IMG/VR virus record: IMGVR_UViG_3300009425_000082
Span: 1 to 25,742 of that record
DNA length: 25,742 nt
From: a virus
Direction: 5' to 3' (one strand)
Shown here: one piece after another, positions 5,892 through 25,421 of the stretch
How the letters are laid out: every line of letters begins with the position of its first letter
Position numbering within the stretch: position 1 is the first letter of the stretch
Notes under the pieces: generated by a model
Told to the model about the DNA's origin: nothing
The model's input: only the letters and a program-made list of their open reading frames with translations
Databases searched by the model: none
Position numbers and translations under genes: made by a program

Positions 5892-6247
5892 CTGGGACTC
5901 CACTTGATTGGTACGAATTCAGCGAGGTGACTTCTACGCAATCTGATATTCAACATATCATTCAGACATCGTGGATCTTCGCGGCACTGCCACTGTAGAA
6001 GAAGTTCCTGCATCTTAGCATAGGACTTCTTCTCATATTCCACCAGAGTATCTTTGATAAGATCACCTTCATATTCTAGTACGGCATTGCCACTACCAAA
6101 ATACTTTTCATATTGTTTAATAGGTTTACACGAGTATCCAATGTAGTATCTTCCATCTGGGAAGTATGTACAATATACCCTATGTACTTTCTTTTCCGCG
6201 GGTTTCTTCTTCCGCTTCTTCTTCACTACTTTCTTCACTGCTACCAT
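5888..6247 (-). CDS. GIY-YIG-like nuclease family protein
   Basis: The 119-residue protein opens with a lysine-rich stretch (KKVVKKKRKKK). A GIY-YIG-like core follows: RVYCTYFPDGRYYIGYS (residues 23-39), then YFGSG, as in phage GIY-YIG proteins of the YxGSG type, and a C-terminal NIRLRRSHL. The first motif is RVY rather than GIY, while the second, YIG, is intact. A catalytic Arg right after YIG is not evident, so activity is uncertain. The first 68 bases overlap the end of the 67-residue gene in another frame. A late box at 6281-6288 lies 34 bases upstream, inside that gene. It may be a homing-type or resolvase-type nuclease, or an inactive derivative. Confidence 0.7.
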   Translation of the reverse strand: MVAVKKVVKKKRKKKPAEKKVHRVYCTYFPDGRYYIGYSCKPIKQYEKYFGSGNAVLEYEGDLIKDTLVEYEKKSYAKMQELLLQWQCREDPRCLNDMLNIRLRRSHLAEFVPIKWSPR

Positions 6248-6383
6248 CTTTCAATACACCTGAATCATCATCTAGTGTACTATTTATATCCTTTTTTCCG
6301 AATATGAAATCCCAGTTATGGTCTATGTTTTGTTGATTTTCTCTACGTCTTCCACTTCCCTTACCACCATGCCAACCTTTCAT
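6180..6383 (-). CDS. small conserved phage protein, 67 residues, acidic tail
   Basis: The protein starts MKGWHGGKGSGRRREN and continues NWDFIFGKKD. I recall this glycine/arginine start followed by FIFGKK as a short conserved protein of T4-like marine phages, function unknown. Residues 49-61 are almost all Ser and Glu. The start overlaps the methyltransferase stop by ATGA. The last 68 bases are shared with the GIY-YIG-like gene in another frame, where the GAA-rich run is read as AAG and gives lysines. A late box lies inside the gene. Confidence 0.68.
   Translation of the reverse strand: MKGWHGGKGSGRRRENQQNIDHNWDFIFGKKDINSTLDDDSGVLKDGSSEESSEEEAEEETRGKEST
6281..6288 (-). promoter_or_regulatory. 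T4-type late promoter box inside a gene
   Basis: A perfect minus-strand TATAAATA lies within the 67-residue gene, 34 bases before the GIY-YIG-like start at 6247. It would allow late transcription of the GIY-YIG-like, membrane protein and cytidylyltransferase genes. Confidence 0.6.
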
Positions 6384-7039
6384 GCATTTCCTTTGTACAT
6401 ATAAAATGTCCAGAAGAGGCGATTTCGTTTCTCCACAACTGGATATTTACATGCTATCTCTTTGTTGTCGTATAGTTCCTTAGAGAACACTATCTGCTTT
6501 TCAAACAGTATCTCCCAGTCATCACCATACGTTTCGTTAAAGGCTTCATCTATCTTATCTCTGTCACTGAAACTCAGGACAGCAGAATAGAATTCACCAC
6601 CGGTATTGAGGTATTTCTTGGAGTCTTTGATAGCCGCAACTGTCAACTCCCATCCATTTTCTGGTGTAGGGACATTCTTAGGAAACCATGTAGTTATGTC
6701 TGCAATCTCTTTAGCACAACCACTGATATCACTAGCAATAATGTCGAATTTCTGATCTGTGAGGTTGGAGTATATGTCGCTTTGAAGGACTTGCATTTTA
6801 ACATCATTGGAAGTACAATTATCTTGCGCGTATTTCACATGACCATCATATATGTCCAATCCAATGCAACCATCTGCACCGTTTTTCATAAAGTGAATCC
6901 CTACTGCACCAACTCCGCACCCCAAATCCAATATAGTCTTCCCTACTGGATCAATGTTTTGAGCAAAGAGTTTTGTAACAGTATTTGGTTGAAAACATTC
7001 ATCATCTATAGCTAATTCCATGTCTAGGAATTTCAACAT
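6380..7039 (-). CDS. class I SAM-dependent methyltransferase
   Basis: The 219-residue protein has a Rossmann-type methyltransferase core. Motif I is TILDLGCGVGAVGI (residues 35-48), an acidic residue at the end of strand 2 is in GLDIYDG, and DVKMQVLQSD fits motif III. The position where DNA adenine and PrmC-type enzymes carry NPPY reads DIIASDISG, so a standard N6-adenine or glutamine methyltransferase is unlikely. The substrate could be protein, RNA or a small molecule. GAGAAGGGT before the ATG is a strong ribosome-binding site. It follows the nuclease gene after 17 bases and is coupled to the 67-residue gene. Confidence 0.85.
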   Translation of the reverse strand: MLKFLDMELAIDDECFQPNTVTKLFAQNIDPVGKTILDLGCGVGAVGIHFMKNGADGCIGLDIYDGHVKYAQDNCTSNDVKMQVLQSDIYSNLTDQKFDIIASDISGCAKEIADITTWFPKNVPTPENGWELTVAAIKDSKKYLNTGGEFYSAVLSFSDRDKIDEAFNETYGDDWEILFEKQIVFSKELYDNKEIACKYPVVEKRNRLFWTFYMYKGNA

Positions 7040-7056
7040 ACCCTTCTCACTTTATT

Positions 7057-7509
7057 TTATAAGCACCAACTAACTTTCTTGTCACCAAAGTATTCCCTGG
7101 CGTACCCATTTTCTAATAGCGCATACCGCAGACTAACTCCATCAACGATTACATCACCCAACACTCGACCACCGTATTTATCCCATGATTGAATAGCAAC
7201 TTCGATCTTTGTACCGGAAGCCAGCATGTCCTTGGTGAACTGAGATGCTTCTTCTCCCAATTTCTTTTCTACATCACAACTACCACGCCAGCTTTTCTCT
7301 GGGGTGTCTACGCCGAAAACTCGTATGCTCAGTTCTTGCTTGAGTGGTGCAGGTAGAAAGTTGGCTTCAAATGCAACAGTGTCACCGTCAATTACTCGGG
7401 TGATAGGAAAGTCATAGATTACCATCTCTTTCTCTTTGCCAACGGCAATAGCACTAAAGATAGCAAATAGAATTGCGGTGGTAAATATAAACGTCTTTTT
7501 TAAAGTCAT
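7057..7509 (-). CDS. exported staphylococcal-type (thermonuclease) nuclease
   Basis: The 150-residue SNase-family protein cleaves DNA and RNA using calcium. The first 23 residues (KKTFIFTTAILFAIFSAIA) form a signal peptide or membrane anchor. The core shows VIDGDTV (D41, D43), RVFGVDTPE (R63, D68, T69, E71) and WDKYGGRVLGDVIVDG (R115). These correspond to the calcium ligands and to Arg35, Glu43 and Arg87 of staphylococcal nuclease, so it should be active. Export implies action in the periplasm or outside the cell, for example on incoming DNA or debris. It has an AGAGAGA ribosome-binding site and a perfect late box at 7543-7550. Confidence 0.92.
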   Translation of the reverse strand: MTLKKTFIFTTAILFAIFSAIAVGKEKEMVIYDFPITRVIDGDTVAFEANFLPAPLKQELSIRVFGVDTPEKSWRGSCDVEKKLGEEASQFTKDMLASGTKIEVAIQSWDKYGGRVLGDVIVDGVSLRYALLENGYAREYFGDKKVSWCL

Positions 7510-7542
7510 TATCTCTCTTCTATATTGATTAGTAGGAACTCA

Positions 7543-7550
7543 TATTTATA
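7543..7550 (-). promoter_or_regulatory. T4-type late promoter box for the nuclease unit
   Basis: A perfect minus-strand TATAAATA lies in the 44-base gap after the nucleotidyltransferase-cupin gene. The expected leader is about 28 bases and includes AGAGAGA before the nuclease start. This separates late accessory genes from the nucleotide-metabolism run above. Confidence 0.7.
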
Positions 7551-7553
7551 CGA

Positions 7554-8351
7554 CTATTCGTCCCTCTGTATATCCTCTTCACTCGTATCAGACCCATACT
7601 GGATCTCTATGATGTGACATGGAGTTCGGTAAGGATTGCTTATTTGATGCCACTCGTTTGCTCTCACGGTGAATACATCATCCTCTCGGAGGTTGTGCAT
7701 GGTGTAATCTGTTCTCTTGCCTTTGCTATGCTTAACTGTGCATTGACCTTGACTAACGAACCAGATTTCACTACGCAAAAAATGCTTCTGATAACTGATA
7801 CATTTGTTAGGCTGAATCACCAATTCCTTGACTTTGATTCTGCTATCTTGGAGCAGAATTTTATATATACCCCAATCTCTGATGATATTATTGCCCTCTG
7901 ACCATTGAGCCAAGAGTTCACTACTGCTACTAGACTTTCCTCCACCAACACCATATCTAAACTTGATGTTGTCGGTGGAGATAGAGTTTTCTGGAGTAGT
8001 AGTTATGTCTCTGTCGCCACCATTAGCGAATATATACTCCACATTACCAGAGACTGGCATATTCATCACGCGAGATATCAGGTCAATAGCCGTATCGTCT
8101 GAATCATCAAATGATATAACATCATCTACACCTTCAGTAGCCATCAACATACACCAGCGATCATCAAAACACATGAATGCCCTGCCTTTCTTGCGAGTCA
8201 ACCACTCATCTGAATTTAGACCGACAATTAACCAGTCGCCCATGGCTCTAGCTTCTCGTATGTAATCTAAATGTCCAGGGTGTATTGGATCGAATCCACC
8301 AGAGATGATTACAACAGTCTTTTTAATTCCAGTCTTCTCTTTCTGCATCAT
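7554..8351 (-). CDS. nucleotidyltransferase-cupin fusion protein
   Basis: The protein is 265 residues from ATG at 8351, which has GAGG 6 bases upstream; GTG at 8375 is a weaker start. The N-terminal domain is a cytidylyltransferase/HldE-C-like nucleotidyltransferase: SGGFDPIHPGHLDYI holds the HxGH motif, followed by GLNSDEWLTRKKG, IFANGGDRD and GGGKSSSSSELL. From about residue 160 a mannose-6-phosphate isomerase type cupin follows: QPNKCISYQKHF, EIWFVSQGQ, then VRANEWHQISNP. Family knowledge suggests activation of a phosphorylated sugar or polyol in the first domain and isomerisation or sugar binding in the second. The substrate is unknown. It overlaps the zinc-ribbon gene by 29 bases and closes the nucleotide-metabolism run. 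Confidence 0.87.
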   Translation of the reverse strand: MMQKEKTGIKKTVVIISGGFDPIHPGHLDYIREARAMGDWLIVGLNSDEWLTRKKGRAFMCFDDRWCMLMATEGVDDVISFDDSDDTAIDLISRVMNMPVSGNVEYIFANGGDRDITTTPENSISTDNIKFRYGVGGGKSSSSSELLAQWSEGNNIIRDWGIYKILLQDSRIKVKELVIQPNKCISYQKHFLRSEIWFVSQGQCTVKHSKGKRTDYTMHNLREDDVFTVRANEWHQISNPYRTPCHIIEIQYGSDTSEEDIQRDE

Positions 8352-9939: not shown

Positions 9940-10155
9940 TTAAGCGACCTTAAAATAGTTATTCCATTCGGAAGATGATGATAAAGCTACCAAATCTTGA
10001 TAGCCACCTATATTTGCACCGTCTACGATGATCTGTGGAACTGTACCAGTGTCTTGAGTTTCTTCCGTGAACTCTATCTCCATACCTACCAAGAATGATT
10101 TTGCATCATCACAAAATTGACAATCACTTCTCGATTTAATTACTACTTCAGTCAC
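9940..10155 (-). CDS. glutaredoxin-like redox protein
   Basis: The protein has 71 residues from a GTG at 10155. This start has GGGAG 7 bases upstream and overlaps the previous stop by one base (TAGTG). An ATG at 10200 would add 15 residues inside the upstream gene and has less support. The active-site pair is CQFC in KSRSDCQFCDDAK, and the TVPQIIVDG cis-proline segment followed by GGYQDLVAL is typical of glutaredoxins. It probably re-reduces the C-terminal cysteines of NrdA during turnover, as its place between nrdA and nrdB implies. Confidence 0.9.
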   Translation of the reverse strand: MTEVVIKSRSDCQFCDDAKSFLVGMEIEFTEETQDTGTVPQIIVDGANIGGYQDLVALSSSSEWNNYFKVA

Positions 10156-10784
10156 TAGTTTTCTCCCGTATCGATTTTTTTTATTTGGTTGAATCCCCAT
10201 TCACGCTCTTTGCACCACCAACAGTTATTACATCTTCCTCTGTTCTGTTCAGTGCAACTATGCGTTATGGGCATTATTATATTAGCGATTCCAATCTGAA
10301 ATGCTAACTCTATGGTCTGTGCCTTTGTCCAAGTGGCGAAAGGATGACCAACGTACTGCTTGTGTTCTTCTGGTGTTTCGTATCTATCATTTGGTAATGG
10401 GAAATCAGGCAACATCTCTTGCATGTTTGGTGGATACGCATTCTTAGCATTAAGTAAGTATTCTGCTTTCCCTGTCTCCAATATTTCCCATGCACCAGAT
10501 GTCACATAATCAGAAGGATTCTCGCTGTCTATTTTACCAACGATAGTCGTTTTCACTGGTGATATTCTCAGCCATCTGTTGACTGACTCTAGCACTAAGT
10601 TTGCATAATGTTCAGCCCCGTCTATCTTGGGTACTGTGAACGGAACACATTCTTGCCCACGTTCAATGCATATTCTCTTAGCCATACACCATAAGACTGC
10701 GCTATCCCATCCACCAGAGACAAGTACACCTATCTTTTTGTCTCTGGGAATGTATCTGCTTACAGAAAAGACACCACTCACCAT
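10155..10784 (-). CDS. PP-loop ATPase, QueC-like
   Basis: The protein has 209 residues from the ATG at 10784, which shares one base with the nrdA stop (TGATG). It carries the pyrophosphatase loop SGGWDS (23-28) of the adenine-nucleotide alpha-hydrolase fold. Its C-terminal cysteine set, C177-x7-C185-x2-C188-x2-C191 in SCTEQNRGRCNNCWWCKERE, mirrors the zinc site of QueC, which makes preQ0 from carboxydeazaguanine. The middle part lacks the FVPGRN-like segment I expect in QueC. The chemistry could therefore be preQ0 synthesis or another ATP-dependent amidation or thiolation. No FolE, QueD or QueE partner is in the window. It sits inside the ribonucleotide reductase operon. Confidence 0.75.
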   Translation of the reverse strand: MVSGVFSVSRYIPRDKKIGVLVSGGWDSAVLWCMAKRICIERGQECVPFTVPKIDGAEHYANLVLESVNRWLRISPVKTTIVGKIDSENPSDYVTSGAWEILETGKAEYLLNAKNAYPPNMQEMLPDFPLPNDRYETPEEHKQYVGHPFATWTKAQTIELAFQIGIANIIMPITHSCTEQNRGRCNNCWWCKEREWGFNQIKKIDTGEN

Positions 10785-12583
10785 CACCCTTCACACGCCA
10801 AACATTCATCGTCATTAACAAGTGCTGTCATATCTAACTCTTTGATAATCTGGCGCTCTATTCTATTGGAAACCTTATCTGCTTTACCCAGTTTCTCTGA
10901 GCGACAGTAGTATAATGTCTTCAGACCTTGCTTCCATGCTAGGTAATGTGCCGCATGTAAATACTTGATATTAACATCTGGACGGAAGAACAGATTGAGC
11001 GACTGTGCTTGATCTATGAACTTCTGCCTATCTGCGGCGTGTTCTATAACCCATCGCATGTCAATTTCCATTGCTGTCTTAAAGATAAGTTTCTCATAAT
11101 CTTCAAGGCATTTCAAGTGCTGAACTGACCCATCGTTTGCAATTATTGACGACCAAATCTCATCATAATCGAGTTTCGGATCACTCTCAATTTTACTCTT
11201 GAGAAGGACATCCAAATGCTTATTTTTGTTGAGATACGCACCGCTAAGTGTGTCTTGACGATATGCGTTTGCACGATATGGCTCAATGGAAGGGCTAGTG
11301 TTGCCCATAATGATACTGCTACTTGCGTTAGGAGCAATAGCCATAACATGACTAAACCGTCTTCCCGTCCCACGTGCATCGATTGCCTCGCCTCGCTCTT
11401 TACCAAGTCCCAAGTTTGCTTCATCTAGTTTGCTCCTTATCAGCCTAAACATTCTCATGTTTGTGCCTTTAGCTATAGCGCCCTCAAATGGAATTCCCTT
11501 TTTCTGTAAATATGCGTGGTAACCGAGGGCTCCGATACCAATACTTCTTTCTTGTGTTGCTGAGAATTTAGCCCGACTAACTGAATCGGGTGCGTTATCA
11601 ATAAAGTATTGTAACACATTATCTAGCATCTCTGCAACATCTTTTAAGAAATTATTATCCTTTGACCATGCATCATAGTACTCTAAGTTAACAGAGGACA
11701 GACAACATACAGCAGTTCGGTCTTTGCTAGTAGGTAGTATTATTTCTGAGCATAAATTGGATTGGTGTATCTTCAGCCCTAAATCTTTCTGAAACTGCGG
11801 CAGTCCACGGTTGCTCGTGTCAATGAAATGCATGTAAGGCTCTCCAGTCTCCATTCGCATTTCTAGTATCTTCTGCCACAACTCTTTAGCGGAAACAGTC
11901 TCCTTGATCTCTCCAGTGTGTGGATCACATAGGTTCCAACCATCATCCACAGTGGGATCTACCATACATCGCTCAATAATCTCCATAAAACGATCTGGGA
12001 TATTCACACCGTGATGTAGATTTAGGCACCGCATGTTCTGATCGCCAGTCGGCTTCCGCATGTCGAGGAACATAGTAATGTCTGGATGTGAGATATCTAA
12101 ATATGCCGCGTATGATCCACGTCTGGTTCTACCTTGACGGTAAGCAAGTGATGAACTGTCGTAGGTTTTGAGATGAGGCATAACACCAACAGACTTATCA
12201 TCAGTGGAGCGGATCCCAAAACCAATACCGACACCACCACCAAGCATAGATAGCCAATTTGTTTCAGATAAGTTTTCAACTAATCCCTCCGCGGTGTCGT
12301 TAATGTAATTTAGAAAACATGAAATTGGCATGCCGCGCTTACTTCGACCATAAGAAAGAATGGGAGTAGAGTAAGACAACCAATGTTTACTGGAGTAGTC
12401 ATATAGACGTTGGGAATGCTCTGGATTAGATCCAAATGCATGACTAACGTGTGCGAATCTTTCTTGTGGTGAAGTCTCATCATCACGCATGTATGATTCT
12501 GAGAGTCGCTGTAGACCTAACTTATCAAATAATTCATCCCTTGAGAGGTCAATCTGTAACCCCAAGTATTCTTTCTTCGCCAT
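10784..12583 (-). CDS. nrdA: ribonucleotide reductase class I large subunit
   Basis: The 599-residue subunit reduces ribonucleotides to deoxyribonucleotides. Key residues are present: C89 (ISCFLNY) and C293 (AVCCLSS) for the redox pair, N276-C278-E280 in NLCSE for the active site, Y558-Y559 (LKTLYYCRS) for the radical path, and C594/C597 (ECLACEG) as the C-terminal shuttle pair. E. coli NrdA has 761 residues and T4 NrdA about 750. The missing part is N-terminal, and no ATP-cone is seen, so overall activity inhibition by dATP is probably absent; specificity control may remain. Its ATG overlaps the upstream TAA (TAATG). Confidence 0.96.
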   Translation of the reverse strand: MAKKEYLGLQIDLSRDELFDKLGLQRLSESYMRDDETSPQERFAHVSHAFGSNPEHSQRLYDYSSKHWLSYSTPILSYGRSKRGMPISCFLNYINDTAEGLVENLSETNWLSMLGGGVGIGFGIRSTDDKSVGVMPHLKTYDSSSLAYRQGRTRRGSYAAYLDISHPDITMFLDMRKPTGDQNMRCLNLHHGVNIPDRFMEIIERCMVDPTVDDGWNLCDPHTGEIKETVSAKELWQKILEMRMETGEPYMHFIDTSNRGLPQFQKDLGLKIHQSNLCSEIILPTSKDRTAVCCLSSVNLEYYDAWSKDNNFLKDVAEMLDNVLQYFIDNAPDSVSRAKFSATQERSIGIGALGYHAYLQKKGIPFEGAIAKGTNMRMFRLIRSKLDEANLGLGKERGEAIDARGTGRRFSHVMAIAPNASSSIIMGNTSPSIEPYRANAYRQDTLSGAYLNKNKHLDVLLKSKIESDPKLDYDEIWSSIIANDGSVQHLKCLEDYEKLIFKTAMEIDMRWVIEHAADRQKFIDQAQSLNLFFRPDVNIKYLHAAHYLAWKQGLKTLYYCRSEKLGKADKVSNRIERQIIKELDMTALVNDDECLACEG

Positions 12584-17360: not shown

Positions 17361-19172
17361 TTAATCAGGGATTTCAGTGTCATCAGCGGCATCGCCAGTA
17401 ATTCCGTTCTTGCTCATAGCACATAGAACTTCATACTGTACTCGTCCTGCTCGGGCACCCGTACCGACTGTACGCTTGATCCAACCAGTGTGAGATGCGG
17501 CTGAACTATTACCGCCACCAGCACCAAGTCCGATACTAGCAGTAGCAGTTGCAAGAGTCTCTGAGTCAAGTTCAAAATACTGTGCGTTGTTACCAGTACC
17601 AGTAAGATTGACAAGAGTTGCTTGTAACAGTGTGATACCAGTAGGTGTGCCAACAACAGTAGTCAACGCGCCACCGGCTTCAGTAGTCAATGTAAATCCA
17701 CTTACATTAGGTGAAGTACCAGTCACCGCAGATACTTTATAAATTGTACCAGTTGCGTATGAGTTGATTGATCCAGTTCCAGCGAAAGTGCCAGAAATCT
17801 GAACACGATCACCAACCGCGGCTGTGGCTGCGGCACAAGTGAATGCACCAGATGTGCTTGAAATTACAGGAGCAGTGATGTTAGTACCAGCAGACAATGC
17901 AAGAGTAGTAGCAAGACGGAATGCATCAGCAGTTGCACCAAGAGCAGACTTAAAGTATACAGTGTTATCAACAAGACCGGCAAGTGCAGTACCGCCACCA
18001 TCTTGATAACGTAACTTCTCGCCAGATGCTACAGCGTGGGCTGTGTATGCAATGCTTTCAGTTGCGATAGTTACACCGGAAGTCGGTATAGTGATGGTTG
18101 GCTTCTCAATAGTAACAGTAGGTACTGTGCCTGTGTAGCCAGAACCAACATCAGTAACAGTGATAGCTGAAACAACACTACCGGCAACAGCGGCTGTAGC
18201 AGTCGCAGTATCACCAGTAAATGTCTGTGCGTTGTTACCTTGTCCAGTTAATGCAACATTTGTACCGGCAACAGCATTGCTTACAGAGGAAGCAACTTTG
18301 ATCGTATCATTAGTGACTTTGATTACATAGTATGCGGTGCCATCAGTAAGACCAGCAAGTGCAGTACCACTACCGTCACCATAAGTCAGTTTGTCACCAG
18401 TAGTGAGTCCATGACTAGCAATTTCGATGATATTAGTAGCAATAGTAACTTTAGCGGCTGCTACAGTAATTGCGGCAGGTGCAGTAAGTGTAGCAGTCGG
18501 CACTTCTTGATAGTTTGTTCCAGCGTTTGCAACAGCAATAGAAACTACGTTGTCAGAACCGGCTACTAATTCACCAGAGTTGACACCGAAAATACTAGCG
18601 GCAGAAGTATTACTATCGAAACCACCAATTGTAGGCTTCTCACTGTAAGTATATTGTGCGGCAGTGAATGCTGTGATTGCAGTACCAGCATCTAGTGACT
18701 GTACAGTTGCTTTAGTAGTAGATTCAACACTAAGAATTTGAAATTGTTGTGTGAGTACAGTGATAACATCACCAACATTTGCTTCTGTTGAGAAGTTTGC
18801 CGAGCTTGCTCCAGTAGCAATTGCGCGAGTACCGGCAACTAATGCGAGAGTAAGTTTGTGTGAAGCACCAGAACCATCAGCTAATGTGATAACATCAGGT
18901 ACATTCTGAGTTGCCTTAGCTTCTGTGAGTGCTAATTGAACACTGTTAGTTGTTACGTTAGTTATAAAGTAGTTAGTAGTATCTACAATTCCTACTACTT
19001 GAGTACCACCGCCATCAACGTAATTGACTTTATCGCCTGTGCGAAAGCCATGTGCAGTTAAAGTAATGACGGAAGACGCCACTCCAGTTGCACCGTTGAA
19101 GGTAGCTGATACTGGCTGTATTGCTACAGTACCAGTACTTGTTTTATCGTCTGCTTTACCCCAGCCTGACAT
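17361..19172 (-). CDS. modular beta-repeat virion structural protein
   Basis: The 603-residue protein is rich in Ala, Thr, Gly and Val and very poor in Cys, Met and Trp. Three related modules occur at about residues 37-83, 248-295 and 373-421, each with an SHGLTTGDKL-type strand, a GGGTALAGLVD-type turn and a TxYFxxxVT-type strand. A second repeat (VSIAVANAGTNY at about 210 and VSAITVTDVGSGY at about 334) and a third (LTGQGNNAQTF, LTGTGNNAQYF) are interspersed. The C-terminal part (HTGWIKRTVGTGARAGRVQY, then DDTEIPD) is a conserved ending I recall from marine phage structural proteins. It is likely a capsid decoration, neck or fibre component. AGGAG precedes the ATG. Confidence 0.82.
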   Translation of the reverse strand: MSGWGKADDKTSTGTVAIQPVSATFNGATGVASSVITLTAHGFRTGDKVNYVDGGGTQVVGIVDTTNYFITNVTTNSVQLALTEAKATQNVPDVITLADGSGASHKLTLALVAGTRAIATGASSANFSTEANVGDVITVLTQQFQILSVESTTKATVQSLDAGTAITAFTAAQYTYSEKPTIGGFDSNTSAASIFGVNSGELVAGSDNVVSIAVANAGTNYQEVPTATLTAPAAITVAAAKVTIATNIIEIASHGLTTGDKLTYGDGSGTALAGLTDGTAYYVIKVTNDTIKVASSVSNAVAGTNVALTGQGNNAQTFTGDTATATAAVAGSVVSAITVTDVGSGYTGTVPTVTIEKPTITIPTSGVTIATESIAYTAHAVASGEKLRYQDGGGTALAGLVDNTVYFKSALGATADAFRLATTLALSAGTNITAPVISSTSGAFTCAAATAAVGDRVQISGTFAGTGSINSYATGTIYKVSAVTGTSPNVSGFTLTTEAGGALTTVVGTPTGITLLQATLVNLTGTGNNAQYFELDSETLATATASIGLGAGGGNSSAASHTGWIKRTVGTGARAGRVQYEVLCAMSKNGITGDAADDTEIPD

Positions 19173-19194: not shown

Positions 19195-21321
19195 TTAGAT
19201 GTGTTTTTTAAAGTGATCGTGTGATTGGTGAGCATGATCTTGCATCGCTTGTTTCTCGTGTGGCTTTCCATTTAGATATTTATTCAAGAATTTGGCAGCA
19301 TGTCCCTTAGGAATCTCATGTGATTTGCCATTCTGGAAAGTTACATGTTTACCGATACTAATGGCTTTTCGTAATTGAGGAACAATATGTTCTACTCCCT
19401 TATCTTTTTTGCCATCATGCTTCACATCAGGCTTGTCTTGCTTTGTAGGCGCTAATCCTTTAGAATCAGCGCGAGCATCAGCGGCAGCATCAGACGCCGC
19501 AGATTCTTTCATTGATTTTTTCTTATGATTCAGGTGACCTTCTGACATGAGAATTTTTACGTCACTGTCAGCAGTGTTAACCACATGAATGCCACTTTCA
19601 AACATAGTCTTGTACCAAGCAATATTTCCGTCTGCATCGGGTATAGAATGTTCACCGAGTAGAGGAGTTCCCTCACCAAAGCCTTCTTTGAATATTTTAG
19701 TTGCACATTGATGCTTGTCGCCTTCAAGTGCGCCATCAGCTACTCCATCCATTTTCTCTTCAGCGTAGACATGTCCACCAGCAACAGCTTTCTTAGCATC
19801 ACTCGTTGAACTGCGAGTGACTTTGCCAGTTTTAGGATCAGCAGTCATTGCAGTTTTAATGGGTGCTTTTCTGCCGGGTGCATTTCCTTTTTCTTTTGCT
19901 GCCTTTCGTCTAGCTTCGTTTTCAAGAAATCCTTCAAGCTGAGGATGAGTTGATTCGTTCTTAGCATCGTGATTGGCATCTACCTTGGCAAAGAATGCTT
20001 TCTTCTCTTCATTGGACATATCTGCCAATGTCTTGCCAGTAGCCTTTAACATTGCATCAAATTTATCTTTATAAGATTGCTTCTCTTTATCTGGAGCATC
20101 ATTATTTGCCATGTCATCGACTGATTCTTTTTTCATTGGTTTGACCTTATCCGGTTGCATGCCATCAGGATGTGCATTTTTAGTTCCTGCAGGTGGCTTG
20201 ACTCTCCACTTTATCGCTGTCTTACGCGGAGGTGAAGTATCATATGATTCATTATTCGTTCTTGACGCATTAAATTCGTCTTGGCGTGACTTAGCCAGTT
20301 TTGCAGCCGCGGCTTTCTTTGCATCGACTGGCTTAGCGAATCGATCTTTAGATACAGATAGTCCACTCTTCTTAGCATCAGTAGCCGAGATAGATGTGCC
20401 TTTAGGATAGTCTGTACTCTTCACACTTCTACTCTTCGCCTGATAGTCATTATACTCTTTACGTCTGCTATTATTGGCAGACTTTTCAGAAGGAGTCATT
20501 TGTGACACCGGCTTGTTGTATTCAGCAATATGCTCAACTTCTTCATTCTTAGACTTTGGTCCTGATTTCTTAGGAGTCTTAGAAGAGTATGTGTTCAATT
20601 CGTATGGATGGGTTCCACCTTTATTATACACTTGAGTGTGTATAGTATGTGAGTCACCAGTTTTGTGATGACTTGCAGGAACATTGACTGAAGTAGTCTT
20701 ACCGCTACCTGGCTTTTTGCTTCCAGTTCCAATGTGAGTCATTCTATCATCATCAGATACTTTTAAACCACTCTTAGCGTGGTGAGCATGTGCAGTGTTG
20801 ATTGCATCGGTGTAGCTTTTGTGATACAACTTATACGCTTCTTCAAGTTCGCCTTCTTCTTGCTCTGTGCATTCACAAGGATCGCACTCGCAATTTTCGC
20901 ACTCGCAATCGGTGCCTTCAGCTAAGTCTTCGTCATACACGAAATCATCTTCGCCGAAAAGATTCTCTACTTCTTCATCAGTGAGAAATTCATCTTCTGG
21001 ATCACCAAAAAGAGGATGCTCATTGTCTTCGTGCATTCCCTTATTTTTGTTCATCTGAGTCTTGGCGCGATTGAATACAGTATCGTCTCCAAGTACAATA
21101 AACATGAATGAATTCATTAAAGAGTTTACGGAGTCCCGTTCTTGAGGTGCTAACGCCTTTCCGCCATTTAATTTAGCAAGACCGCGTTTTAATATGGGTA
21201 ACTTGGATGCGGGCATTAGACCCTGACGGACAAGCATGTCAAGACGTTTGTCCATGTTTGCGTTTTCCATGATGGCACCGGTGCCATTTATGATATCTTT
21301 AATCGATCTTTCAATTGACAT
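19195..21321 (-). CDS. large hydrophilic virion-like protein with Cys cluster
   Basis: The 708-residue protein is mostly low-complexity and hydrophilic. Residues 1-95 are helical and ordered (RSIKDIINGTGAIM and on). An acidic stretch (about 98-160) contains six cysteines spaced CxC-xx-CxC-xx-CxC (C139 to C151). Long Lys/Ser/Asp-rich disordered segments follow, and the C-terminal end (SIGKHVTFQNGKSHEIPKGH, then AAKFLNKYLNGKPHEKQ) looks like a small folded module known to me from phage internal virion proteins. A late box (21356-21363) and GGAG precede the ATG. It may be an internal virion or scaffold protein; cleavage by a prohead protease is possible. The radical SAM gene lies directly upstream. 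Confidence 0.7.
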   Translation of the reverse strand: MSIERSIKDIINGTGAIMENANMDKRLDMLVRQGLMPASKLPILKRGLAKLNGGKALAPQERDSVNSLMNSFMFIVLGDDTVFNRAKTQMNKNKGMHEDNEHPLFGDPEDEFLTDEEVENLFGEDDFVYDEDLAEGTDCECENCECDPCECTEQEEGELEEAYKLYHKSYTDAINTAHAHHAKSGLKVSDDDRMTHIGTGSKKPGSGKTTSVNVPASHHKTGDSHTIHTQVYNKGGTHPYELNTYSSKTPKKSGPKSKNEEVEHIAEYNKPVSQMTPSEKSANNSRRKEYNDYQAKSRSVKSTDYPKGTSISATDAKKSGLSVSKDRFAKPVDAKKAAAAKLAKSRQDEFNASRTNNESYDTSPPRKTAIKWRVKPPAGTKNAHPDGMQPDKVKPMKKESVDDMANNDAPDKEKQSYKDKFDAMLKATGKTLADMSNEEKKAFFAKVDANHDAKNESTHPQLEGFLENEARRKAAKEKGNAPGRKAPIKTAMTADPKTGKVTRSSTSDAKKAVAGGHVYAEEKMDGVADGALEGDKHQCATKIFKEGFGEGTPLLGEHSIPDADGNIAWYKTMFESGIHVVNTADSDVKILMSEGHLNHKKKSMKESAASDAAADARADSKGLAPTKQDKPDVKHDGKKDKGVEHIVPQLRKAISIGKHVTFQNGKSHEIPKGHAAKFLNKYLNGKPHEKQAMQDHAHQSHDHFKKHI

Positions 21322-21355
21322 TACTTGTCTCCAAGAATTTGTTGTTTACTGTTAT

Positions 21356-21363
21356 TATTTATA
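21356..21363 (-). promoter_or_regulatory. T4-type late promoter box
   Basis: A perfect minus-strand TATAAATA lies in the 53-base gap after the radical SAM gene. The leader of about 30 bases carries GGAG before the ATG at 21321, as expected for a late structural gene. Confidence 0.72.
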
Positions 21364-21374
21364 AGAAATAAAGA

Positions 21375-22982
21375 TTATGATTTCCATGCCAGCTTCTTCG
21401 CCTTGTAGCTTTCTAGAAATTCTACTTGCTTATGCCGAGGTGGATGCATCATTTCACCCAGTTCTCTGAAAGATTTCATCATATCCTCTTTTGAGTACCC
21501 ACATGATAGCCAATTTGCTTGCCAGTATACGGGTATACCTCTGTCCCAGTATCTCTTGTGACCAAGAAGATTCGTCCATACTCCTACCCACGCATCGATA
21601 TAGTCCCAATGCTCGTTCTTCCACAATACAACTCCAAGTATGAATTCATGGCTATTGACATCGGGTATTGTCTGCCGCAGTCTATCTTTAAAATATGGGT
21701 CTATATTTGGGTCAGCCAAAATATGATCAACTCTATCTCCCACGGGCGCAATTTCAACTGGTTGCATCTCCCTATACCCATATTTTTGTATGTTTGCAGT
21801 CATCTTATTTGGGCGAGCCAATCCACCATTTTTTGGAATCATCAGAGGAAATTGTTGTACCGCTTCGGCATGCCAATTCTCATCTATCCAATCAAATGTC
21901 TTTTGTTGAGTTTCAGGTGTCTCATATGGCAGTCCCCAAATAAAACTCATCTCACCTGCATAGAAACCATTCTCTTTCAAGAATATCTGTTTTGCTTCCA
22001 AAATGCCATTCAGTATTTTCTCGGTGTTCCCACCCTTACCCATAGCTTTTGCAGATTCCTGATTAGTAGACTCTATGCCATATAGATGGCTATTGAATCG
22101 CATTCTAACGAGTTCTTTAATATCATCGGGTCTTTGTGTCATCAAATCGGCGCGAATGTATCCAGAGAAGTTTGGCTCAAAGTCTAAACTCTCTACCACA
22201 TCAGCATACTTGCGAATCTTTTCTATGTAATCATTGAAGGTGTCATCAGTGATTGTGTACTCTGTCGTGCCCCATTTCTTATAGTTTCGTCTTAAATCTA
22301 ATTCAAAATTCTCGGCTGATCTCGTGTGATCGTCTTTCACACCCAAGATAGGAAAGTTGCAGTAGGAGCAAGCAAATCTACAGCCGCGGGATGTCTCCAT
22401 GTTTAGTGTTTCAAATGACTGTATGAAGTCTCTTTCCTCATAATCAATAGACAGATCCATCATAGGATATGCTTGTAGTTCTTTGGTGTGAATGCAGTCC
22501 AACACCTTAACGACTGGTGCACCAGGCATAATTTGCCAATCGTTATATTTTGGATTGCCATCCAGAATAGAACTTATTCCAAGTTCGCCGTAACCAGTGA
22601 CGCACCAGTCCACACCTATTTGTGAGATAGACCAGATATCTTGACTTCCGGCAACAGTGATTATGTCTGGGTATGTGTCTTTGATATATTTAAATAATCG
22701 TTTGACGTTTGGTGATGCCAGCCAGAATATGCCGCCTATTCCTACCATTCTTGTGGATTCATCCACACGAGAATCCACTATGGCAACTAACTCTTCATAT
22801 GTAAACGAGAACACAAAATCAACTACTTCAACATCAAGGTGGCGATTTTCTCTTAGATGCGTGGCTATTCGATACGTGCCAGAAGCCCTACTACAAACAT
22901 CGTAGATGGGATCGGTTGTATCACCTTGATTAGTGTTTACGTAGGAGGAAAATCCAGTAAATAATAAAACTTCTACAGCCAT
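21375..22982 (-). CDS. radical SAM enzyme, B12-binding-domain type layout
   Basis: The 535-residue protein starts at the ATG at 22982; a GTG one codon earlier is less likely. The first 190 residues form a Rossmann-like domain of the sort that binds cobalamin in class B radical SAM enzymes (GIGGIFWLASPNVKRLFKYI, TVAGSQDIW, DWCVTGYGELGI). The usual DxHxxG cobalamin motif is not visible. The radical SAM core follows with ETSRGCRFACSYCNF, the CxxxCxxC iron-sulfur site, then TITDDTFND, FSGYIRADL and YGIESTNQES. A roughly 170-residue C-terminal part is rich in Trp and Pro. The substrate is unknown. It lies between virion-like genes and directly before the Cys-cluster protein, so modification of a phage protein is a fair guess. 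Confidence 0.88.
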   Translation of the reverse strand: MAVEVLLFTGFSSYVNTNQGDTTDPIYDVCSRASGTYRIATHLRENRHLDVEVVDFVFSFTYEELVAIVDSRVDESTRMVGIGGIFWLASPNVKRLFKYIKDTYPDIITVAGSQDIWSISQIGVDWCVTGYGELGISSILDGNPKYNDWQIMPGAPVVKVLDCIHTKELQAYPMMDLSIDYEERDFIQSFETLNMETSRGCRFACSYCNFPILGVKDDHTRSAENFELDLRRNYKKWGTTEYTITDDTFNDYIEKIRKYADVVESLDFEPNFSGYIRADLMTQRPDDIKELVRMRFNSHLYGIESTNQESAKAMGKGGNTEKILNGILEAKQIFLKENGFYAGEMSFIWGLPYETPETQQKTFDWIDENWHAEAVQQFPLMIPKNGGLARPNKMTANIQKYGYREMQPVEIAPVGDRVDHILADPNIDPYFKDRLRQTIPDVNSHEFILGVVLWKNEHWDYIDAWVGVWTNLLGHKRYWDRGIPVYWQANWLSCGYSKEDMMKSFRELGEMMHPPRHKQVEFLESYKAKKLAWKS

Positions 22983-22997
22983 CACTTTTATCCATGA

Positions 22998-23329: not shown

Positions 23330-25408
23330 TTATTTCTTCTTTTTTGGCTTGGCTATCTTAAACTTCTTAGCTTTATATTTACTAGATGAGCCGCCTTTTT
23401 TAACTTTGAACTTCTTAGATGCCTGCTTCTTCATGCCGCCACCTTTCTTAATCCTAGTCAATTCGTTCTTGCGAACAATTGGTACCATACGAACAGCCAA
23501 ACGACTCACAAGTCCAGAGAACTTCTGGGTCATCTTCTCAAGCCTAGCTTTCTCTGCTGGCGGCAATGTTTTAATATCACGACCTCTAGCAAAACGCTTT
23601 TTGATTACTGACATTGCGCCACGTTGGGCACGCTTCTTAATTCTTGCAGGATCACCAGCTCTTCTTGAGGCTCTCATCCTAGCGACTTTCAACTTCTGTC
23701 GATTGCGTCTTGCATGGAACCTGCGCTTCATTCTACCTTGAACAGATAGCTCCTCATCAAGAGCATGGTCAGCCGTAAGTTCTTCTTCTTCCGCTTCTTC
23801 AACATCCGCTTCAAAGTCTTCAATCTTATCGAACTCATCGAGTTCTGAATCATCGTACATGTCCAGATCAACCATGTCATCAAATGACATGTGTTCTATA
23901 TCTGATTCCATTTCCAGAATTTCTACTTCAGAAAATTCATAGTCTTGTGGGAGAAGTAATGCTTCTTCTGCGTTGTCTGCGGCATATTTAGCTTTAGTCT
24001 TTGCACCTGCAGGTTCGTCATCTTCATGTGGTTGATCATAATCTTCTTTGATAGGCTTGTTCATCACATTCAACTTGATCAACTCTTCACGAGTTAATGG
24101 ACGGGCATGATGCTCATGCGGCACTCCCTGCCCAGGAGTCATATCTTTGTAATGTTTAGTACCTGCTGGAGTTCCCCATTCATGCTTCTGTGCGGTGTAT
24201 TCTTCAGTATAGTATTTGGCTAATGTTCTAGCATCAACCTTATTTCTATGGAACTGCGAGGCAACTTGTTGGGCATAGTATTCCACGCCATGTCGCATTC
24301 TGCCACCAGTTTCTTTCTTCTTGCGATCCACAATCTTCTTCAAAATGCCAGCCGCAACTTCGTATTCTTTCTTATTCCACGTGAATGCCAGAATTGGTTT
24401 AATAATAGACTGTGCTTCAGCTAACTTAGCTTCCTCTACACTCTTGGCATATGCGTCTTCTGCTATCTTCTTAATAGGAGGAAGTTTGTTTGACAGTGCT
24501 TGCTTACGCTTTTCTTGTTTGCGTTGCATTGATGACTTGCCAAGACGATCTCTCATTATCAACTTATTTCTACCAATATCACCACCTTCTTCTTTAACAG
24601 TATCAGATGCGTACTGTGCTTTCAGTTTTTCATGTTCTGCGGCTCGTTCTTTTGCGCGTTTTGCTAAATCAACTCCGCTAGACTTTAAACGATTAGCTAT
24701 TCGTTGACTTGCAGGTACAGCCTCTTTAAGACCTCGCGCTTTCTTTTGATCTTTGATCCATCGAGTAGCTTTGTAATTTGATACTGGTGATTTCACCCAT
24801 GCACCAATTTTACGATACGCGCCAAGAGTAGCACCTTTCCAGTCAGCGTCTGTGCCGTTGTCAACAATGTGTAGATTAGCACCAAATAAGTTTTGGAACT
24901 TACCTATGTTATCTTGAACTGCGCCCCACATCTTTTTGACTTGGGCAGCGGGCATTGTCCTGTCACGATTCATGTTCCTAGACTGGGCAGTCTCTTCATT
25001 AGTATTAACAAAGATCATAGCGCAATCATAGCCAATTTTTTCTAACGCTTTCTTTTGAGTTTGAATCTTCTGGTAATCCTTTCCAGTACCATCAATGACA
25101 AGACCAAGCCTGCCATTCAGTAGACCATCTTTCTTCAAAGATGTCAGTTTCTTTGCTCTGTCTCTGAGTGATTGTCCCTTAACCGTGTAGATATTCTCGG
25201 GTGTTGCATCCATGCCAGCCTTCTTCAGTGCTGTTTCAAATGCAATATCTGAGTTTATAAGTTTTAATCCAAACGAGGTTAGTGCAGTCTGACCAACAAC
25301 AAATGACTTACCACTGCCTGGTCCGCCTGCAAGAAACACAGCTTTGAAGATGCCCGGGTCATTGATACCCTCATCTAACTCTACGAAATCTAAGAATTTT
25401 TTGTCCAT
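23330..25408 (-). CDS. P-loop kinase fused to acidic and basic virion-like tail
   Basis: The protein has 692 residues. Residues 20-200 are a zeta-toxin/polynucleotide-kinase-like P-loop domain: Walker A GGPGSGKS (28-35), LINSDIAFE, a second-strand acidic site LGLVIDGTG, then MIFVNTNEETAQSRNMNRDR with probable lid arginines. Residues 200-450 are basic and helical. Residues 457-555 are very acidic (EEAEEEELTADHALDEE at the end). Residues 558-692 are extremely basic (RMKRRFHARRNRQKLKVARM, ending KPKKKK). I recall the basic end from conserved large proteins of marine T4-like phages. The layout fits a protein packaged with DNA whose charge is masked until processing. Substrate of the kinase is unknown. 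A late box directly precedes the ATG. Confidence 0.8.
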   Translation of the reverse strand: MDKKFLDFVELDEGINDPGIFKAVFLAGGPGSGKSFVVGQTALTSFGLKLINSDIAFETALKKAGMDATPENIYTVKGQSLRDRAKKLTSLKKDGLLNGRLGLVIDGTGKDYQKIQTQKKALEKIGYDCAMIFVNTNEETAQSRNMNRDRTMPAAQVKKMWGAVQDNIGKFQNLFGANLHIVDNGTDADWKGATLGAYRKIGAWVKSPVSNYKATRWIKDQKKARGLKEAVPASQRIANRLKSSGVDLAKRAKERAAEHEKLKAQYASDTVKEEGGDIGRNKLIMRDRLGKSSMQRKQEKRKQALSNKLPPIKKIAEDAYAKSVEEAKLAEAQSIIKPILAFTWNKKEYEVAAGILKKIVDRKKKETGGRMRHGVEYYAQQVASQFHRNKVDARTLAKYYTEEYTAQKHEWGTPAGTKHYKDMTPGQGVPHEHHARPLTREELIKLNVMNKPIKEDYDQPHEDDEPAGAKTKAKYAADNAEEALLLPQDYEFSEVEILEMESDIEHMSFDDMVDLDMYDDSELDEFDKIEDFEADVEEAEEEELTADHALDEELSVQGRMKRRFHARRNRQKLKVARMRASRRAGDPARIKKRAQRGAMSVIKKRFARGRDIKTLPPAEKARLEKMTQKFSGLVSRLAVRMVPIVRKNELTRIKKGGGMKKQASKKFKVKKGGSSSKYKAKKFKIAKPKKKK

Positions 25409-25413
25409 AATGG

Positions 25414-25421
25414 TATTTATA
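25414..25421 (-). promoter_or_regulatory. T4-type late promoter box next to a start codon
   Basis: A perfect minus-strand TATAAATA ends 5 bases before the ATG of the kinase-fusion gene. No purine-rich ribosome-binding site is visible before that ATG, so the late message may be nearly leaderless. Confidence 0.55.

Follow-up and report, generated by a model that had tools for sequence, protein, structure and literature searches.

A cobalamin-type radical SAM enzyme in a conserved gene slot of T4-like phages: a candidate late C-methyltransferase

Introduction

Among the known cobalamin-dependent members of the radical S-adenosylmethionine (SAM) superfamily, the substrates include small molecules, peptides and proteins; two members, Mmp10 and MgmA, act on methyl-coenzyme M reductase (PMC8828468, PMC11796369). 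Here we describe a gene for a predicted enzyme of this type in a marine T4-like phage, the IMG/VR virus record IMGVR_UViG_3300009425_000082, whose 25,742 bases were analysed and are referred to below as the window. The gene lies between a small conserved gene, g109, and the gene of a 708-residue protein, the neighbour, which carries a dense cluster of cysteines. The first-pass annotation of this DNA had suggested that the enzyme modifies that cluster. We propose instead, with moderate confidence, that it belongs to a phage family of cobalamin-dependent radical SAM enzymes, that it is probably a C-methyltransferase produced late in infection from an exchangeable cassette, and that it is not a general modifier of the neighbour's cysteines.

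The enzyme and its fold

The enzyme gene encodes 535 residues from its ATG, or 536 (22985..21375) if the GTG directly before it is taken as the alternative start. Residues 196-367 of the GTG form match the Pfam Radical_SAM profile (1.7e-16), and the score of 61.3 bits, well above the curated cut-off of 29.5, together with a CX3CX2C motif places the protein in the radical SAM superfamily, as had been recognised in the first-pass annotation. The motif, predicted to bind a [4Fe-4S] cluster, reads SRGC-RFA-C-SY-C-NF in its context, and all three of its cysteines are invariant across an alignment of 48 family members (alignment A6). The ratio of nonsynonymous to synonymous substitution rates was 0.05-0.19 in four pairs, indicating purifying selection on the gene.

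Alignment A6 was also the input to an AlphaFold (AF2) model, which is of high quality (predicted local distance difference test, pLDDT, 92.1; predicted template modelling score, pTM, 0.91). In the model an N-terminal Rossmann domain precedes the radical SAM core, which is followed by a mostly helical C-terminal part. The solved structures ranked highest by Foldseek were TsrM (2.3e-13), MgmA (1.4e-12) and OxsB (2.5e-12), with MiaB and AprD4 behind them. Since these three top-ranking enzymes depend on cobalamin, and since the Pfam B12-binding profile is matched at E<=0.01 by 21 of the 48 family members (best 8.2e-9), the cobalamin-type assignment is well supported as a statement about the fold. 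The N-terminal cobalamin-type domain claimed earlier is thus borne out at the level of this model, and assignment of the enzyme to the cobalamin-type radical SAM proteins is sound at that level. B12/radical SAM models of NCBIfam (for example TIGR04072 and PhpK) were matched by all 48 members tested; the window enzyme's own best NCBIfam matches lie far below their cut-offs. A PHROG search with the enzyme matched no family. At E<=0.01 neither the enzyme nor any of its 47 relatives matched SPASM, an auxiliary cluster domain that would be expected of a thioether-type maturase.

The slot and its transcription

The position of the gene is conserved. At each of the 17 window-group loci whose contig covers the site, the enzyme is flanked by g109, or a homologue of it, on one side and by the neighbour gene on the other, and a kinase-like gene lies farther upstream. 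The enzyme also adjoins the neighbour gene in a diverged group (L122, L126 and L148), where it is 33-35% identical to that of the window and lies 32-48 bp before that gene. On both grounds we regard the slot as real, and the adjacency of the enzyme and the 708-residue protein, noted at first pass, holds as a fixed arrangement. When the paralogues L168-L172, which lie at other places in their genomes, are added to the enzyme tree, the slot rows require at least two label changes on supported (starred) branches. This suggests, with modest support, that the enzyme arrived at the slot more than once, or arrived once and later moved away.

The motif TATAAATA, a late promoter motif of T4 type, is present in seven copies in the window, where 1.55 would be expected. 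One copy directly precedes the kinase gene, at the head of the presumed unit, where a T4-like late gene would have it, and another precedes the neighbour gene; the interval between g109 and the enzyme has none. Because of this arrangement we infer that kinase, g109 and enzyme would form one late unit and that the neighbour would have a separate start. At each of the 22 wider-group loci that were checked, with and without the enzyme, the neighbour gene is preceded by such a copy at a distance of 37-45 bp.

The neighbour protein and its cysteine cluster

The hydrophilic 708-residue protein with six clustered cysteines lies directly downstream of the enzyme, as the first-pass annotation had described. 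Its seven cysteines stand at positions 139, 141, 144, 146, 149, 151 and 539; six of them thus fall within 13 residues, a crowding that is, judging from the sequence, clearly non-random, and L001 has the cluster as well. Whereas the N-terminal domain is conserved, the hydrophilic tail differs from relative to relative. No Pfam, PHROG or NCBIfam family matched the protein above threshold, its N-terminal domain gave weak PHROG matches at most, and the model of that domain was poor (pLDDT 56, pTM 0.30).

The cluster does not behave as a conserved partner of the enzyme, and we have ruled it out in that role. Among the neighbour homologues fetched, the pattern CxCxxCxCxxCxC was found in the window and L001 only. 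Homologues in L007/L008, L013/L018, L014, L092 and L148 have other cysteine patches, and those of L002/L003 have no cluster. The L009-group neighbour, which adjoins an enzyme 62% identical to that of the window, has no cysteine at all in its 706 residues. Conversely, L098/L099 keep a patch in the neighbour and have no enzyme in the slot. A conserved cysteine-rich partner, as would be expected of a thioether-type maturase, is therefore missing in the L009 group and in L002/L003. The two genes are also frequently separated: in about 60 enzyme-family loci the neighbour's N-terminal domain has no recognised counterpart, and only 26 of 80 loci with this domain gave an enzyme match. The first-pass annotation had named frequent occurrence of enzyme homologues without the cluster protein as evidence against the pairing, and this is what we observed; the proposal that enzyme and cluster form a functional pair is not supported.

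Our conclusion rests on the counter-examples (L009, L002/L003, L098/L099), and not on tree statistics. On the tree of the neighbour domain the enzyme state changes four times and the patch seven times, and of the 16 loci in the set that bear a patch, 14 have the enzyme; with a single supported independent contrast, a statistical link between patch and enzyme can be neither demonstrated nor excluded. Neither the cluster segment of the window nor the L007-type cysteine segment matched anything in the phage records. As a separate observation, the neighbour homologue of L129 (ORF 6001-7689) contains at residues 325-363 a cassette beginning GLWDNIHAKRKRIKGG that recurs in many marine phage records, including in genes annotated as ribonucleotide reductase.

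Distribution and probable exchange of the enzyme gene

A profile scan found 98 relatives of the enzyme in IMG/VR, of which 80 were fetched (loci are given as L numbers throughout). A set of genomes from 84,980 species contained two, both on contigs of Parcubacteria metagenome-assembled genomes, and one of these contigs has the same length, 9,736 bases, as a viral contig in the IMG/VR list. Among 50,697 phage records there was one match, from human faeces, at 24% identity. On these counts the family is almost exclusively viral within the collections scanned; the scans were seeded from two conserved peptide patterns, by which more distant members may be missed. On several long viral contigs, L024-L031 and others like them, an Asp/Asn hydroxylase and a fatty-acid desaturase are found close to multiple radical SAM genes. 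The surroundings of the family member in L172 (5268-9550) include a glycosyltransferase and genes resembling QueC and Coq4; a QueC-like gene is present in the window, too (10155-10787).

Within its slot the gene appears to be an exchangeable cassette that is missing from some close relatives. This reading rests on two comparisons. In L086-L088, the nearest slot-negative relatives, which have 83% of neighbour-domain residues in common with the window, g109 lies directly upstream of the neighbour gene; L087 and the window are 84% identical in DNA over 4.7 kb from the neighbour's end onward. Between the window and L001 only the enzyme gene has diverged, with 78-89% DNA identity against mostly 91-99% for kinase, g109 and neighbour; the identity step lies close to the ends of the enzyme gene, and an enzyme protein 81% identical is paired with a nearly unchanged neighbour. 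An allele swap would be the simplest explanation, faster evolution of the gene being the alternative.

A phage with an empty slot may still have the enzyme. The slot-negative loci L102, L118 and L129 belong to contigs G008, G009 and G015, each of which has an enzyme paralogue elsewhere, and the slot-positive G001 and G002 have two family copies each. In G001, G002, G008 and G009 the second copy adjoins a gp32-like gene, confirmed by Pfam in G008. These gp32-side copies lie in large T4-like contigs, two of which have no copy in the slot.

Features of the locus

The features are collected in Table 1. Pelagibacter phage HTVC008M and Methylophilales phage Melnitz have counterparts of the N-terminal kinase domain of the 692-residue protein at 47-50% identity. 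We also asked whether the kinase tail and the neighbour of one locus have modules in common; eight pairs gave one weak match, and the idea is not supported. The kinase-like protein of the L015/L017 group (L015 6158-8494) contains a cysteine-rich segment, CGCGQDPCITYGKQAVKEHCGC, at kinase residues ~553-575. The description of the surroundings as a virion-like block stands in part: the product of the gene following the neighbour has a partial-length match to baseplate-wedge PHROGs, and the 708-residue protein itself has no match above threshold.

Table 1. Coordinates of the enzyme gene, its parts and its surroundings (window positions unless a locus is named)
Feature	Position	Strand	Remarks
Cobalamin-type radical SAM enzyme gene	21375..22982	-	535 residues from ATG at 22982
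CX3CX2C motif	22359..22382	-	Cys 201, 205, 208; predicted [4Fe-4S] binding
N-terminal Rossmann/B12-binding-like domain, residues 1-145	22548..22982	-	strands and helices alternate in model
g109, small conserved gene, 109 residues	22998..23327	-	directly upstream of enzyme; order kept in window group
692-residue protein, N-terminal zeta-toxin-like/AAA kinase domain	23330..25408	-	Pfam AAA_33 6.6e-8, Zeta_toxin 1.4e-6
TATAAATA late promoter motif	25414..25421	-	just before kinase gene
TATAAATA late promoter motif	21356..21363	-	42 bp before neighbour gene start
708-residue neighbour gene	19195..21321	-	53 bp downstream of enzyme; N-terminal domain of ~95 residues conserved
Cysteine cluster CECENCECDPCEC, CxCxxCxCxxCxC	20869..20907	-	neighbour residues 139-151; variable segment
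603-residue baseplate-wedge-like protein	17361..19172	-	phrog_2885 3.7e-22, partial length
Second family member beside gp32-like gene	L168 5999-7498		
Second family member beside gp32-like gene	L169 6560-8065		
Second family member beside gp32-like gene	L170 6288-7817		
Second family member beside gp32-like gene	L171 6031-7560		

Discussion

The computed motif, fold, family, synteny, promoter motifs, presence and absence of the gene and its lack of dependence on the neighbour's cysteines lead us to infer cobalamin binding, methyl transfer, late timing and a class of substrate for the enzyme. By analogy with its structural relatives, the likely chemistry is transfer of a methyl group via methylcobalamin to an unactivated carbon. 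Cobalamin would be bound in the N-terminal Rossmann domain, with the [4Fe-4S]/SAM centre in the core. Methylcobalamin would be formed from cob(I)alamin and a first SAM. A second SAM would yield a 5'-deoxyadenosyl radical, by which an unreactive carbon of the substrate would be activated to accept the methyl group of methylcobalamin. As the last gene of the kinase-g109-enzyme unit, the enzyme would be made late in infection.

Several results weigh against this reading. The Pfam B12-binding profile scores 14 bits in the window enzyme, below its cut-off of 32.1; template modelling scores (TM-scores) of the enzyme model to known enzymes are no more than ~0.5-0.6; and AprD4, whose similar domain is not known to bind cobalamin, is itself among the structural matches (TM 0.53/0.62). 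The enzyme could accordingly resemble AprD4 in having a degenerate B12-like domain and no use for cobalamin. We consider this unlikely, given that TsrM, MgmA and OxsB rank higher by E-value and that 21 of 48 relatives match the B12-binding profile at E<=0.01. Far less probable is action on the neighbour's cysteine cluster, for instance by thioether formation, which is largely refuted as a general function. It could draw on the adjacency of the two genes and on the differing cysteine patches of several enzyme-side neighbours, 14 of 16 patch-bearing loci having the enzyme. However, the cluster is not tied to the enzyme, as the cysteine-free L009-group neighbour, the cluster-free L002/L003 and the patch without slot enzyme in L098/L099 illustrate; there is one supported independent contrast, and the nearest solved folds are B12-type enzymes. 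A role in hypermodification of DNA bases is very improbable as well. The distant relatives in L060, L066, L074 and L079 adjoin genes of one family, whose L060 copy matches the amino acid:DNA transferase PF18724, and also a P-loop kinase-like gene, an arrangement resembling a DNA hypermodification operon. Yet these relatives form a separate branch (L060 24% identical in A6), and PF18724 was not found in two 165-kb relatives of the window, whose contigs are possibly incomplete, so that a DNA role for the window enzyme's own branch is unlikely.

For a cobalamin-dependent methyltransferase, we have two leading guesses at the substrate: a protein of the phage virion or of its assembly, and a component of the host envelope. 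The conserved slot and the late motif make the former possible; the occurrence of relatives in clusters with a desaturase, a hydroxylase and further radical SAM genes makes a host surface component comparably possible. It is a tentative suggestion that the enzyme modifies a virion or assembly protein of its own locus (the conserved part of the 708-residue protein, g109 or the kinase fusion), for example by C-methylation as with MgmA and Mmp10. This would fit the conserved position beside these genes in two enzyme groups, the slot-label changes in the tree with gp32-side paralogues and the late promoter motif at the head of the unit; moreover, phage structural proteins can bear methyl marks, on lysine and arginine (PMC13288928). 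However, the close relatives L086-L088 and L098-L099 keep the neighbour genes although their slot has no enzyme (for L087 and L098 the search covered fragmentary contigs), and the window and L001 have nearly identical neighbours and g109 while differing in the enzyme. Apart from differences between clades, g109 and the N-terminal domain of the 708-residue protein had no residue that set enzyme-bearing phages apart; the comparison of C-terminal residues had one enzyme-bearing row and carries no weight. Action on glycans, lipids or other small molecules of host or phage, leading to surface change or superinfection exclusion, is a possibility that we hold equally loosely. Relatives at 31-37% identity (A6) occur in clusters that also contain an Asp/Asn hydroxylase, a fatty-acid desaturase and other radical SAM genes, the L172 member has a Coq4-like gene and a glycosyltransferase in its vicinity, and host-recognition clusters of pelagimyophages bear radical SAM cassettes (PMC7029224); the window copy, by contrast, occupies a conserved slot outside such clusters. 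One may further speculate, with little confidence, that T4-like marine phages have their own B12-dependent radical SAM methyltransferases, which would C-methylate a virion or assembly protein late in infection, the slot copy and the gp32-side paralogue serving different substrates.

The enzyme thus represents a nearly virus-restricted family of B12-type radical SAM proteins that holds conserved positions in T4-like phages, one member in the slot and another next to gp32 in large marine phages, and for which we saw no curated family over its cut-off. Its substrate, if identified, would reveal what unusual carbon chemistry is imposed by phages on infection, and whether infection depends on the vitamin B12 of the host.

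Comparison with known systems

The enzyme has in common with TsrM, MgmA, OxsB and TokK the CX3CX2C motif and a radical SAM core that is preceded by an N-terminal Rossmann domain and followed by a helical C-terminal part. TokK is its top profile match, and the other three are its top matches among solved structures. It differs from them in its phage origin and in sequence, with ~14% identity in structural alignments. Its best curated profile matches are the PhpK family (TIGR04479) and rSAM_ladder_B12 (TIGR04072); because its scores, 73.2 bits against a cut-off of 600 and 60 against 360, fall far under the curated values, it is a member of neither. The radical SAM diol-dehydratase AprD4 resembles it in overall fold and differs in genomic context.

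Among phages, the closest parallels are the radical SAM genes of pelagimyophages (PMC7029224) and of Campylobacter phages CP220 and CPt10 (PMC2853527), likened here by kind of gene and by setting. These, too, occur in T4-like or virulent phages, some of them as interchangeable modules. Their cassettes lie in host-recognition or central modules, whereas the window enzyme occupies the conserved slot formed by kinase, g109 and neighbour.

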